This document shows, one piece after another, positions 2,338 to 63,519 of a stretch of 64,000 nucleotides of DNA (its first letter is position 1; every line of letters begins with the position of its first letter). The notes below the pieces were generated by a model. The model worked only from the letters and a program-made list of their open reading frames with translations, ran no database searches and was not told where the DNA came from. Origin of the DNA: Chloroflexota bacterium. Its GTDB lineage: Bacteria; Chloroflexota; Dormibacteria; Aeolococcales; Aeolococcaceae. The DNA is taken from positions 1 through 64,000 of the forward strand of contig VBIQ01000007.1 in the NCBI GenBank assembly GCA_005880985.1, in the 5' to 3' direction. The translations under genes were made by a program, and so were the position numbers.

Positions 2338-4413
2338 ATGCCCGCCGCCGTCGCGCCCGCCCCGCTCGCCGTCCCCGCAGCCGACGCTCCGGTCGCCGGT
2401 CTGCCCGGCGTCGGTCCCCGCCAGGCCCAGCGGCTGGCCCGTCTGGGGGTCGGCACGGTCCGCGACCTGCTCTTCCACCTGCCCCGGCGCTACGAGGACA
2501 CCCGCGACGTCCGGCCGCTGGCAGAGCTGCACCCGGGCGAGGAGCAGACGGTGTACGCGCGGGTGCGCAACGTCTCGTCGCACCGCAGCCCGCGCAAACG
2601 GATGGTGCTGGTGGAGGCCTCGCTGGAGGACGGCGGCCATGTCGCCTCGGCGGTGTGGTTCAACCAGCCGTTCCTCGCCCGCCAGATCCACAGCGGCGAC
2701 GAGCTGCTGCTGAGCGGCAAGGTGAAGCTCGGACGGGGCGGGCTGGTGCTGCAGAATCCCGAGTTCGAGCGCGCCTCGGGCGAGCAGCGACACGTCGGCC
2801 GGCTGGCGCCGGTGTATCCCGAGACGGAGGGGGTGAGCTCACGCTGGCTGCGCAGCCGCATCGAGCCGCTGCTGCCGGTCGCCGACGCGCTCGAGGATCC
2901 GCTCCCGCCGCAGCTGCTGCGCAGCCACGACCTGCCCCGGCTGGCGGCGGCGCTGCGCCAGGTGCACTTCCCCGACGATCCCGCCCGGCTCGAGCTCGCC
3001 CGCCGTCGCATCGCCTTCGAGGAGATGTTCCTGCTCCAGCTGGCGGCGCAGCGGGCTCGCCGGCGCCGGCTGGCGGGGAGCGGCGTGGCCGTCGCCTACG
3101 ACGTCGAGGTGGCGCGCCGCTTCGTCGCCTCGTTGCCCTTCCGGTTGACCGAGGGGCAGCGCGTCGCCGCCCACGAGATCCTCACCGACATGGCCGGCAC
3201 CGGCTCGATGAACCGGCTGCTGCAGGGCGATGTCGGCAGCGGCAAGACGGTGGTGGCGGCGATGGCGGCGCTGATGACTCACGCCGCCGGACACCAGACG
3301 GCGGTGATGGCTCCCACCGAGATCCTCGCCCGCCAGCATCACGCCACCATGGAGGCCCTGCTGGCGCCGCACGGTGTGTCGTCGCGGCTGCTGGTGGGAA
3401 GCACCCCGGCGCGGGCCCGGCGCGAGGTGCTCGTGGGGGTCGCGGCCGGGCACGACACGGTGCTCATCGGCACCCACGCGCTGATCGAGGAGGCGGTGGT
3501 GCTGGCCGACCTCGGCCTGGTGGTGGTGGACGAGCAGCATCGCTTCGGGGTCGCCCAGCGGCAGCAGCTGCGGCGCAAGGGCGCGCTCGCGCCCAACTTC
3601 CTGGCGATGACGGCGACCCCCATCCCTCGCTCGCTGTCGCTGACGCTGTACGGCGACGTCGACCTCTCCGAGCTGCGGGAGATGCCGCCCGGCCGCATCC
3701 CCGTCGAGACCCGGGTGGTGGCTCCCCATCAGCGCCCCGAGGCGTACGACTTCGTGCGCGCCCAGGTGGCCGAGGGACGGCAGGCCTTCGTCATCTGCCC
3801 GCTCATCGAAGAATCGGACAAGCTTGGCGTCAAGAGCGCGACCGAGGAGTACGAGCGGCTGCGCCGCGAGGTGTTCCCGGAGCTGCGGGTCGAGCTGCTC
3901 CACGGACGGATGCCGGGGCGCGAGAAGGAGGAACGGATGGGGCGCTTCGCCGCCGGCGAGGCGGACCTGCTGGTCTCGACCAGTGTCGTCGAGGTCGGCG
4001 TCGACGTGCCCAATGCCACCATCATGTTCATCGAGGGCGCAGAGCGTTTTGGCCTGGCGTCGCTGCACCAGTTCCGCGGCCGGGTGGGTCGGGGCGAGCA
4101 CGCCTCGGTCTGCCTGCTCTTCCAGGGCTCGCCCGACGAGGAGGGGAGCAAGCGGCTCGAGGCGGTGGCGCAAACCCGCAGCGGCTTCGACCTGGCCGAG
4201 GCCGATCTGCGGCTGCGCGGGCCCGGCGACGTCGTCGGGCTGCGGCAGCACGGGCTTCCCGAGGTCAGGGTCGCCGACCTGCTCGACACCGCGCTGCTCG
4301 AGGAGGCGCGGCGCGCTGCCGGCGACTGGCTCGACGCCGACCCCGAGCTCGTCACCCATGACCCCCTGCACCGCGCCATGAACGGCTACCGCGCGGTGTT
4401 CGACCTGGACTGA
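2338..4413 (+). CDS. recG: ATP-dependent DNA helicase RecG
   Basis: RecG is a 691-residue branch-migration helicase that regresses stalled replication forks and processes Holliday junctions. The N-terminal wedge/OB region starts with GLPGVGPRQAQRL, and the OB core includes YARVRNVSSHRSPRKRM. The SF2 helicase core has Walker A GDVGSGKT near residue 297, DEQH near 398, and MTATPIPRSLSLTLYGDVD. The C-terminal helicase lobe carries HGRMPGREKEERM, STSVVEVGVDVPNA and QFRGRVGRG. I chose ATG 2338 because it gives the normal length and lies 9 bases after a -10-like box. A start at 2254 would add 28 unconserved residues upstream of that box. Confidence 0.96.
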   Translation: MPAAVAPAPLAVPAADAPVAGLPGVGPRQAQRLARLGVGTVRDLLFHLPRRYEDTRDVRPLAELHPGEEQTVYARVRNVSSHRSPRKRMVLVEASLEDGGHVASAVWFNQPFLARQIHSGDELLLSGKVKLGRGGLVLQNPEFERASGEQRHVGRLAPVYPETEGVSSRWLRSRIEPLLPVADALEDPLPPQLLRSHDLPRLAAALRQVHFPDDPARLELARRRIAFEEMFLLQLAAQRARRRRLAGSGVAVAYDVEVARRFVASLPFRLTEGQRVAAHEILTDMAGTGSMNRLLQGDVGSGKTVVAAMAALMTHAAGHQTAVMAPTEILARQHHATMEALLAPHGVSSRLLVGSTPARARREVLVGVAAGHDTVLIGTHALIEEAVVLADLGLVVVDEQHRFGVAQRQQLRRKGALAPNFLAMTATPIPRSLSLTLYGDVDLSELREMPPGRIPVETRVVAPHQRPEAYDFVRAQVAEGRQAFVICPLIEESDKLGVKSATEEYERLRREVFPELRVELLHGRMPGREKEERMGRFAAGEADLLVSTSVVEVGVDVPNATIMFIEGAERFGLASLHQFRGRVGRGEHASVCLLFQGSPDEEGSKRLEAVAQTRSGFDLAEADLRLRGPGDVVGLRQHGLPEVRVADLLDTALLEEARRAAGDWLDADPELVTHDPLHRAMNGYRAVFDLD

Positions 4414-15897: not shown

Positions 15898-16219
15898 ATG
15901 CTGTCGGCGTCGGCGTCGGCGTCGGCCGGGCCGGCGGCAGTGGTGCTGCACCGGCAGCGGCTGCTCGACGTGTACGGCGCCCTGCTGACGGCGCGGCAGC
16001 GGGAGGCGTGCCGGCTGCACCTCGACGAGGACCTCTCCTTCACCGAGCTGGCGGAGCGGTTCGAGTGCACGCGGAGCGGGGCGCACGACCTGGTGCGGCG
16101 GGCGCTGGCTCAGCTGGAGCACTACGAGGACCGCCTGGGTCACGCCACCGAGCTGTCGCGGCGCGAGGCCGCGGAGGCCCGGCTGCAGCGGCGCATCGCG
16201 GTGCTCGAGGGACGCGGCC

Positions 16220-60384: not shown

Positions 60385-60828
60385 GTGACCGCGACACGGC
60401 GCCGTTCCGGTCGCCGTCATCGTGGCCGCGAGCTGGCGCTGCGCGTGCTCTTCGAGCTCGAGGGCAGCGCCAAGGATCCCGAGAAGACCCTGCTCTACCA
60501 GGCCGACGACATGGGTGCCGCCGCCGATGTGCTCGCCTTCGCCCGCAGCCTGGTGTGGGGGACCCTGCGACAGCTCGACACCATCGAGGCCTCGATCAGC
60601 GCCGCCAGTGTCCACTGGCGGCTGGAGGAGATCGGCAAGGTGGAGCGGGCGGTGCTCCGGCTGGGCGGCTACGAGCTGCTCTTCGAGCCGAGCGTTCCGG
60701 CGGCGGTGGTCATCGACGAGTCCGTCGAGCTGGCCAAGGCGTACGCCGGCGGCGAGGCCGCCGGCTACGTCAACGGGGTGCTCGGGCACATCGCCGAGCA
60801 GCAGCGCGTCGGAAGGGCGGCGCAGTGA
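60385..60828 (+). CDS. nusB: Transcription antitermination factor NusB
   Basis: NusB, with S10, binds boxA RNA and supports rRNA antitermination. The 147-residue protein has a basic N terminus (RRRSGRRHRGRELALRVLFE), LVWGTLRQLDTIEASIS, KVERAVLRLGGYELLFEP and the C-terminal ESVELAKAYAGGEAAGYVNGVLG. GTG 60385 gives the family N terminus; GTG 60358 would lie inside the Asp23 gene. The stop overlaps xseA. Confidence 0.93.
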   Translation: MTATRRRSGRRHRGRELALRVLFELEGSAKDPEKTLLYQADDMGAAADVLAFARSLVWGTLRQLDTIEASISAASVHWRLEEIGKVERAVLRLGGYELLFEPSVPAAVVIDESVELAKAYAGGEAAGYVNGVLGHIAEQQRVGRAAQ

Positions 60829-62192
60829 GCAGCGGACGGATCACCTACACCGTCTCGCAGCTGACCGGACTGGTGCGCGCCGCGGTGAGCGCATCGCCGG
60901 CGCTCGAGGACGTGTTCGTCGAGGGCGAGGTGAGCAACCTGCGCATGCCCGCCAGCGGACATCTCTACTTCACCCTCAAGGATGCGGCGGCGGGGCTGCG
61001 CTGCGTCTGCTTCCGCCGCGAGGCCCAGCGCATCCCCTTCCACCCCGAGAACGGGATGCGGATCGTCGCCCACGGACGGGTCGATGTCTACGACAGCGAG
61101 GGCGTGTACCAGCTCTACGTCGACGCACTGGAACCGGCCGGGCTGGGAGCGCTGGCGCTGGCGGTCGAGCAGCTGGCGCGACGGCTCTCCGCCGAGGGCC
61201 TCTTCGACCCCGCACGCAAGCGGCCGCTGCCGGTGCTGCCGCGGCGGGTGGCCGTGATCAGCTCGTCGAGCGGGGCGGCGGTGCGCGACGCGTGCACGGT
61301 CATCGGGCGGCGCGCTCCCGGCGTGGGAGTGGTGGTGGTACCGACCATCGTCCAGGGCGAGGGAGCGCCCGCGGCCGTCGTCCTGGCGCTGGACCGGGCC
61401 CAGCGGCTGTCTGGGATCGATGTGATCCTGCTGGTGCGCGGTGGTGGGTCCTTCGAGGACCTGATGGCCTTCCAGGACGAGCAGGTGGCTCGCGCCATCC
61501 GCGGCTGCGCCATCCCGGTGGTCACCGGCATCGGGCACGAGACCGACACCACCATCGCCGACCACGCTGCCGATCGCCGTGCGCCCACGCCGTCGGCGGC
61601 GGCGGAGATGGCGGTGCCGGCGGCGATCCAGCTGCGCGACGAGGTGGCCACCCGAGCGGCGCGGCTGCGCCAGGCGCTGCGCCAGGAGGTGGCGGTGAAG
61701 CGCCGCCGCCTCGACGCCGCCCGGGAGCGGATGGCGCGGGTGTCGCCGGACCGCCGGGTCCCGGGGATGCGCCAGCAGCTCGACGGCCGCGCCCAGCAGC
61801 TGCGCGCCGCGCTGCTCCGTGAGCTCGGTGCCAAGCGGCGGCGGTTGGACCGCGCCGCCGGCCGGCTCGAGCTCGCCTCGCCGGTGCGACGGTTGCCGGC
61901 GGAGCGTGAGGGGCTGAGGCGGCGGGCGCAGGCGCTGGAGGCGGCGGGACGGGCGCTGGTCCGGGCCCGCCGGGCCGCCCTGGACGGCTCGCGCGGCCGG
62001 CTCGAGGCGCTGTCACCGCGGCGGACCATCGAACGCGGCTTCTCGGTCACCCTGGACGCCGCCAGCGGCGCGGTGGTCACCGACCCGGGGCAGGTCGCGC
62101 CCGGGCAGCGGCTGCGCAGCCTGCTCGCCGGCGGCGAGGTGGAGAGCGAGGTCGTCGAGGGCGGGAGCGGTGGGGAGGCCTCGACGCCGTGA
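60825..62192 (+). CDS. xseA: Exonuclease VII large subunit XseA
   Basis: XseA is the catalytic subunit of exonuclease VII, which degrades single-stranded DNA from both ends. The 455-residue protein has the OB domain (VSQLTGLVRAAVSAS, VEGEVSNLRMPASGHLYFTL), the nuclease domain with VAVISSSSGAAVRDACTV, LLVRGGGSFEDLMAFQDE, VVTGIGHETDTTIADHAADR and APTPSAAAEMAVP, a long Arg/Ala coiled coil, and SPRRTIERGFSVTLD near the end. GTG 60825 overlaps nusB. Confidence 0.95.
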   Translation: MSSGRITYTVSQLTGLVRAAVSASPALEDVFVEGEVSNLRMPASGHLYFTLKDAAAGLRCVCFRREAQRIPFHPENGMRIVAHGRVDVYDSEGVYQLYVDALEPAGLGALALAVEQLARRLSAEGLFDPARKRPLPVLPRRVAVISSSSGAAVRDACTVIGRRAPGVGVVVVPTIVQGEGAPAAVVLALDRAQRLSGIDVILLVRGGGSFEDLMAFQDEQVARAIRGCAIPVVTGIGHETDTTIADHAADRRAPTPSAAAEMAVPAAIQLRDEVATRAARLRQALRQEVAVKRRRLDAARERMARVSPDRRVPGMRQQLDGRAQQLRAALLRELGAKRRRLDRAAGRLELASPVRRLPAEREGLRRRAQALEAAGRALVRARRAALDGSRGRLEALSPRRTIERGFSVTLDAASGAVVTDPGQVAPGQRLRSLLAGGEVESEVVEGGSGGEASTP

Positions 62193-62275: not shown

Positions 62276-62689
62276 ATGAGCACCATTGACGACGTCACCT
62301 CGCTGAGCTACGAGCGCGCTCTCGCCGAGCTCGACGCTCTGATCGAGCGGCTCGAGGGCGGGGCGGTCAACCTGGAGGAGGCGATCGCGTGCTACGAGCG
62401 CGGATCGCGCCTGGTGCAGCGCTGCAGCGAGCTCCTCGACCGCACCGAGCAGAGCGTGATGCAGCTGGTGGTGGGCGGCGGCGGTTCGCTGCAGGAGCGG
62501 CCCTTCACCCCCGCGAGCACCGCGGAACCGCCGCCGGGGCAGCCCGACCCGATGCCCGCCCCGCCGCCGGAAGCGCAGCGCGTGCGGCCGGTCGGGGGTC
62601 GCCGGGCGCCGTCGCTGCTCCCCGGGCTGGACGCCGAGCCGGCCAGCGAGCGGCGTCCACCGATCGACCCCGACGAGATCCCTTTCTGA
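62276..62689 (+). CDS. xseB: Exonuclease VII small subunit XseB with SSB-like C-terminal tip
   Basis: XseB subunits bind XseA's coiled coil to form the active exonuclease VII. Residues 1-72 are the normal XseB two-helix domain (LSYERALAELDALIERLEGG, VNLEEAIACYERGSRLVQRC). A Pro/Gly/Ala-rich tail of about 60 residues follows, ending RRPPIDPDEIPF. That acidic Asp/Glu then Ile-Pro-Phe ending closely resembles the C-terminal tip of single-stranded-DNA-binding protein. At 137 residues it is well over the usual 70-85. ATG 62276 is chosen over TTG 62261. Confidence 0.9.
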   Translation: MSTIDDVTSLSYERALAELDALIERLEGGAVNLEEAIACYERGSRLVQRCSELLDRTEQSVMQLVVGGGGSLQERPFTPASTAEPPPGQPDPMPAPPPEAQRVRPVGGRRAPSLLPGLDAEPASERRPPIDPDEIPF

Positions 62690-62750: not shown

Positions 62751-62756
62751 TAAGAT
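62751..62756 (+). promoter_or_regulatory. -10-like box TAAGAT, 7 bases before tlyA ATG 62764
   Basis: TAAGAT overlaps the possible upstream ATG 62755 and lies seven bases before ATG 62764, fitting the leaderless pattern. If the box is real, 62764 is the start. Confidence 0.35.
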
Positions 62757-62763
62757 GACCCGC

Positions 62764-63519
62764 ATGGCGGCCGCCGCGCCCGATGCCGCGCGCCTCGACC
62801 GATCGCTGGTCGAGAGGGGGTTCGCCGCCAGCCGGGAGCGCGCCCAGGCACTGATCGCCGCCGGTCTGGTCGAGGTCGACGGCGTGCGCGCCCGCAGCGC
62901 TGCGCAGACGGTGGCGGCCGGGCAGGCCCTGCGGCTGACCGGGCGCGACCATCCCTGGGCCAGCCGGGGCGGTCTCAAGCTGACCGCCGCCCTCGACGTC
63001 CTCGACGTCGATCCGCGGGACCGGGTCGCCCTCGACGCGGGAGCCTCGACCGGTGGCTTCACCGACGTGCTCCTACAGCGCGGCGCGGTGCTCGTCTACG
63101 CCGTCGACGTCGGCAAGGGTCAGCTCGATCCGCGGCTGCGCGGCGACCCGCGGGTTGTGGTCATGGATGACACGAATATCCGCTACCTCGCGCCGCCGCC
63201 GGGTCCGCCGCCCACCCTCGTCACCCTCGACCTGTCCTTCATCTCCCTGCGCCTGGTGCTGCCCGTCGTGGCCCGTCTGGTGGCGCGGCCGGCCGACGTC
63301 GTCGCCCTGGTGAAGCCGCAGTTCGAGCTGGGTCGGGACGCGGTGGGCAAGGGCGGCATCGTGCGCGACTCCGCCGCCGGCGAGGCGGCGGCTCGTGACC
63401 TGCTGAGCTGGGCGGAGTCCGGTCTCGAGGCGGTCGGCACGGGACCGGTGCCGTCTTCGGTACGCGGAGCCAAGGGCAACCGCGAGTGGTTCGTGCGTCT
63501 GCGACTGGAGGAGCACTGA
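62764..63519 (+). CDS. tlyA: TlyA family rRNA 2'-O-methyltransferase
   Basis: TlyA-type enzymes add 2'-O-methyl groups to 16S and 23S rRNA; in mycobacteria this governs capreomycin sensitivity. The 251-residue protein has an N-terminal S4 domain (ARLDRSLVERGFAASRERAQ, LVEVDGVRARSAAQTV) and a FtsJ-like methyltransferase: WASRGGLKLTAALD, ALDAGASTGGFTDVLLQRGA, LDLSFISLRLVLP, ALVKPQFELGRD and VRGAKGNREWFVRL. ATG 62764 follows a -10-like box; ATG 62755 is possible. nadK follows after one base, as in actinobacteria. Confidence 0.93.
   Translation: MAAAAPDAARLDRSLVERGFAASRERAQALIAAGLVEVDGVRARSAAQTVAAGQALRLTGRDHPWASRGGLKLTAALDVLDVDPRDRVALDAGASTGGFTDVLLQRGAVLVYAVDVGKGQLDPRLRGDPRVVVMDDTNIRYLAPPPGPPPTLVTLDLSFISLRLVLPVVARLVARPADVVALVKPQFELGRDAVGKGGIVRDSAAGEAAARDLLSWAESGLEAVGTGPVPSSVRGAKGNREWFVRLRLEEH

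Follow-up and report, generated by a model that had tools for sequence, protein, structure and literature searches.

Near the end of the window, the whole 64,000-nucleotide stretch of DNA analysed here, lie the genes for the large and small subunits of exonuclease VII, with xseA directly upstream of xseB, the pairing expected of this enzyme (Table 1). XseA was identified by its match to TIGR00237 (457.7 bits against a cut-off of 180) and contains an N-terminal OB fold at residues 8-102 (PF13742, with PF01336 also matched). In profile searches the product of the downstream gene matched both PF02609 (57.7 bits against a cut-off of 24) and the TIGR01280 xseB model (58.8 bits against a cut-off of 35). 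The most plausible start of this gene is the ATG at 62276, with an in-frame TTG located 15 bp upstream, and its stop codon is the TGA at 62687-62689. Judged by these matches the product is XseB and not an SSB; PF02609 was the sole Pfam match in the profile search of the protein, from which the SSB OB-fold domain PF00436 was absent. A fusion of ssb with xseB was rejected because XseB lacks this OB fold.

Table 1. Positions of the exonuclease VII genes, the segments of XseB and the downstream genes in the window
Feature	Position	Strand	Remarks
xseA, exonuclease VII large subunit	60825..62192	+	455 aa, complete; TIGR00237, PF02601, PF13742
xseB, exonuclease VII small subunit	62276..62689	+	137 aa, stop codon included in span; PF02609 and TIGR01280
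Two-helix XseB domain, conserved	62309..62458	+	Residues 12-61, PF02609 match; helices in model
Extra Pro/Ala/Gly-rich linker	62516..62662	+	Residues 81-129, after the last residue aligned with E. coli XseB
SSB-Ct-like tip IDPDEIPF	62663..62686	+	Residues 130-137, extreme C terminus
TlyA-type gene, S4 and FtsJ-like methyltransferase domains	62755-63519		Downstream of xseB
NAD kinase gene	63521 onwards		After the TlyA-type gene

The two-helix domain is held in common with E. coli XseB (PF02609/TIGR01280; PDB 8txr, also 1vp7), and xseB here adjoins xseA. The E. coli protein (80 aa), however, stops where the linker and tip of the present XseB start; it aligned to residues 10-80, leaving ~57 extra residues, or a tail of ~70 residues if the count begins at the end of helix 2. 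Pro, Ala and Gly abound in this tail, which terminates in RRPPIDPDEIPF, such that acidic residues followed by Ile-Pro-Phe, the arrangement that characterizes the SSB-Ct motif, stand at the very C terminus. The sequence-only reading had described an XseB extended by a linker that ends in IDPDEIPF, which is borne out by the open reading frame at 62276-62689. It had also put the tail at ~60 residues; the extension stands, but its measured length is ~57 residues relative to E. coli XseB, and the tip itself occupies 62663-62686 only. An AlphaFold2 model built from the single sequence placed helices at residues 12-27 and 33-67, and past residue 67 this model contained neither a strand nor a helix of at least four residues. 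The pLDDT of the tail was mostly 51-73 and, because no alignment was used, the model is weak evidence for disorder.

The genome contains two open reading frames with an SSB fold, both located away from xseB. The main SSB (L001) has the C terminus GGDIDPDDIPF, and XseB is thus identical to the SSB of its own genome at seven of the last eight residues, the sole exchange being Glu in XseB for Asp in SSB. The SSB-like character first ascribed to the ending of XseB is therefore upheld by the genome's own SSB (IDPDEIPF in XseB against IDPDDIPF in SSB). The second SSB-fold frame (L002, G000:C1:180244-180552) ends in VAGVASD, without an acidic-IPF tip. The DNA pattern GANGANNTNCCNTTYTRR, which represents [DE][DE]xPF followed by a stop codon, occurs at just two sites in the 3.3 Mb assembly, ssb and xseB, ruling out a genome-wide abundance of such ends; the reversed control pattern gave 0 sites in the same assembly. 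From the composition of these tails, a terminal [DE][DE][ILVMF]PF would arise by chance with p ~6e-6 per protein, while for the octamer class the p derived from composition is ~5e-10. The presence of the tip is confirmed, and the observation is stronger than first described. What XseB has in common with SSB-Ct is a terminal acidic-Ile-Pro-Phe sequence, preceded by a Pro/Ala/Gly-rich linker that may likewise be of the disordered type. It differs in that the protein bearing the tip is a nuclease subunit and lacks an OB fold, and in that some XseB tips contain Val instead of Ile, or one acid fewer.

XseB tails were compared among the genomes nearest the source genome. Within its own family (f1) the sequence [IV]PF terminates 23 of the 25 complete XseB tails, mostly as [IV]DPD[DE][IV]PF; one genome (G028) was excluded from this count as its tail contains an unknown base. 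The variant tips comprise FDLDDIPF, FGLDDIPF and IDPADVPF, together with VDPDSVPF and DQDDTIPF, which lack the second acid. On a truncated contig from another f1 genus (G001), VDPDDVPF and a stop codon are followed by a gene that resembles the TlyA-type gene, and thus this tail most likely also belongs to an xseB. With this contig included, the acidic-IPF end was found in independent assemblies of 11 f1 genera. The exceptions are two genomes of genus g14, in which the tails end in RDEE. In a tree of the SSB and XseB domains g14 is nested inside f1 with modest support (~0.8), and its tipless tails indicate one putative loss. The recurrence of acidic-IPF tails in close relatives, on which the sequence-only reading depended, hence holds for 23 of the 25 tails, with g14 as the exception.

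The terminal Pro and Phe are invariant in all 23 f1 tips (23/23), the codons of both vary, and the linkers that precede the tips diverge in length and sequence. In the gapless alignment of tails from genus g12, amino acid changes fall in 20 of the first 43 codons and in none of the last nine, six of which vary synonymously. The pN/pS of the last eight codons was 0 in g12, 0.04 in g6 and 0.12 in g7, compared with 0.08 to 0.15 in the domain. All these counts are descriptive and carry no formal test, as the sequences are related and the codons few. Codon changes in the tip are almost all synonymous. The SSBs encoded by the same genomes, which had been put forward as the relevant comparison, end likewise, though the two tips do not co-vary strictly; XseB and SSB both end in DDVPF in family f31, whereas they differ in g6, g9, g5 and f38 (in g6 and g9 XseB ends in DDVPF and SSB in DDIPF). 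Because relatives keep the tip, its codons change synonymously, the linkers diverge and the SSBs end alike, the view that SSB-like mimicry is a selected feature of f1 XseB is well supported.

Beyond f1, the XseB tails of the sister family f2, which belongs to the same order, are ~27 residues long and without a tip. In family f3, of the same class, XseB of this type ends in GEIPF, a shorter version of the tip, in all five genomes that have it, while in family f4 no tip was present on any XseB tail read. Genomes of f3 and f4 (L031, L079-L099) contain two XseB-type genes, and the second copy in f3 is short and tipless. A wider sample of 60 further XseB tails, drawn from ~50 families of the phylum, contained a true tip in two cases, f31 (DTDDVPF, where the SSB ends in SVDDVPF) and f50 (EDVPFQKDVPF), and near misses in DDDMPW and EDEDLPFS. 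With tips on 2/60 of these tails, the feature is uncommon yet recurrent in the phylum; it was absent from the three XseB loci that made up the whole sample outside the phylum. With f1 left aside, three or more families of the phylum have similar tips on XseB, which suggests that they had several origins, or that the tip is old and was often lost. As g14 has lost the tip and f2 never shows one, it is not essential.

The SSB tip is treated as a signature of SSB itself and as a docking hub of bacterial DNA repair. When it docks, the terminal Phe enters a hydrophobic pocket, a basic residue secures its carboxylate and the acids run along a basic ridge, and removal of the Phe or a change of the Pro abolishes or weakens docking (PMC10164576; PMC4846377, the latter for the RecJ pocket). 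For E. coli SSB a linker of 11-20 residues is enough (PMC10164576), a length that the XseB linkers exceed. The XseB tip is invariant in just the part that SSB partners read, and RecO, RecJ and PriA are encoded in this genome. The most economical reading, which is supported by evolution, is probably docking of exonuclease VII on proteins that bind the SSB tip. In such a mechanism f1 XseB would hold, at the end of a flexible linker that is presumably disordered in solution, a short linear SSB-Ct-like motif maintained by selection, and the XseA-XseB complex would present one or more of these tips. The terminal Ile/Val-Pro-Phe and the preceding acids would bind in the SSB-tip pockets of repair and restart proteins, of which RecO, PriA and RecG are offered as candidate examples, and exonuclease VII may thereby meet SSB partners at single-stranded DNA. 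Points against docking are the variants VDPDSVPF and DQDDTIPF, each short of one acid, the lack of strict co-variation between XseB and SSB tips, and the distribution of the tip, which was lost in g14 and never present in f2. On balance we regard docking through a selected SSB-Ct-like motif as rather probable.

It could be argued, as the main rival to docking on SSB partners, that the tip works within the enzyme, binding to the OB fold of XseA when this carries no single-stranded DNA and thereby restraining the nuclease. XseA does contain an OB fold (PF13742, PF01336), the SSB tip interacts with SSB's own OB fold (PMC10164576) and no outside partner would be required. Relatives in f2 and f4, however, have a tipless XseB, and the strict conservation of Pro-Phe-COOH would appear to suit docking in a pocket more than a loose acidic contact; self-docking on XseA is thus considered unlikely, although it deserves to be kept in view. 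The motif may also serve some other use of an acidic C terminus (stability, a degradation signal or an unknown partner), its likeness to SSB having arisen by convergence. This is improbable: while an Amidase_3 membrane protein of f2 does have a conserved DDLPF end, the likeness in f1 reaches beyond the acidic-IPF core to DPD, which is also a mark of the SSBs of these genomes.

That the tip chiefly competes with SSB, making the complex a decoy by which SSB-bound enzymes are released or held up but not recruited, gains from the near identity of the XseB octamer to that of the genome's own SSB. If, moreover, several XseB share one XseA, as is established for exonuclease VII, the complex would offer many tips. 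PDB 8txr contains 16 small-subunit chains from E. coli, in agreement with several XseB per XseA, and tip display in the present enzyme may be multivalent. It should be emphasized, however, that SSB is normally abundant and bears the same tip, so that a scarce nuclease would be expected to compete weakly unless it acted locally, and a principal role as a decoy seems very improbable. High-GC DNA contains many open frames, and a tip that merely reflects chance or an annotation artefact has to be weighed for that reason; the conservation data refute it, since the same end occurs in 11 f1 genera with synonymous substitutions and the octamer class has p ~5e-10, and the probability that remains for such an artefact is negligible.

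Docking on SSB-tip-binding proteins, if true, would mean that a natural and conserved copy of the SSB tip on a nuclease subunit enables other complexes to address the same partner pockets, and would provide a concrete, testable route for bringing exonuclease VII to its substrates. A bolder version, in which exonuclease VII is a second SSB-Ct hub, probably multivalent, and assembles SSB partners such as RecO and PriA without the help of SSB, is possible but doubtful. The XseB tips would provide natural peptide variants (IDPDEIPF, VDPDDVPF and GEIPF) for studies of SSB-tip pockets, which are considered as antibacterial targets.

To our knowledge an SSB-like tip on XseB has not been described before, and neither a description of such a tail nor a structure paper on exonuclease VII was found in the literature searched, whose range excluded most subscription journals. 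The XseB with an SSB-Ct-like tip brings together two known elements in a new way. DdrB of Deinococcus radiodurans, the motif of which was reported to be unnecessary for radioresistance (PMC3834827), itself binds single-stranded DNA, whereas XseB is a nuclease subunit with a conserved tip. In the chimeric PriB-SSBc (PMC8509808), an SSB C-terminal segment is likewise carried by another protein of DNA metabolism; that construct is laboratory-made, in contrast to the natural tip of XseB.

Other motifs and tip-like ends were seen in the genomes compared. Elements resembling the beta-clamp-binding motif are present in some XseB tails of the phylum, among them L004, L020, L033 (EQRLFG), L200 (QPDLFDD), L172 (QRELFD) and L219 (QATLDL); a beta-clamp-like LF motif was counted in the linkers of 11 of 85 tails, where shuffled sequences led to an expectation of 6.5, and this excess is too weak to count as enrichment (p ~0.04, uncorrected for four patterns). 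In f2 genomes (L151, L152, L153 and L161) an Amidase_3 protein that probably has a membrane segment carries a conserved, basic-rich tail that ends in YDDLPF, and in those f2 genomes examined for the [DE][DE]xPF-stop pattern this protein accounts for the second site. As this end is conserved on a protein without a known DNA role, a short end of the YDDLPF type need not mean SSB mimicry. In a further genome (G030) a Cys-rich open frame of 135 residues ends in DDDDIPF (L155, G030:C103, tip 4178-4195), and a small protein that matches no Pfam family and may be a phage-type single-stranded-DNA-binding protein ends in NNVDPDDVPF (L156, G030:C144, tip 16158-16175).
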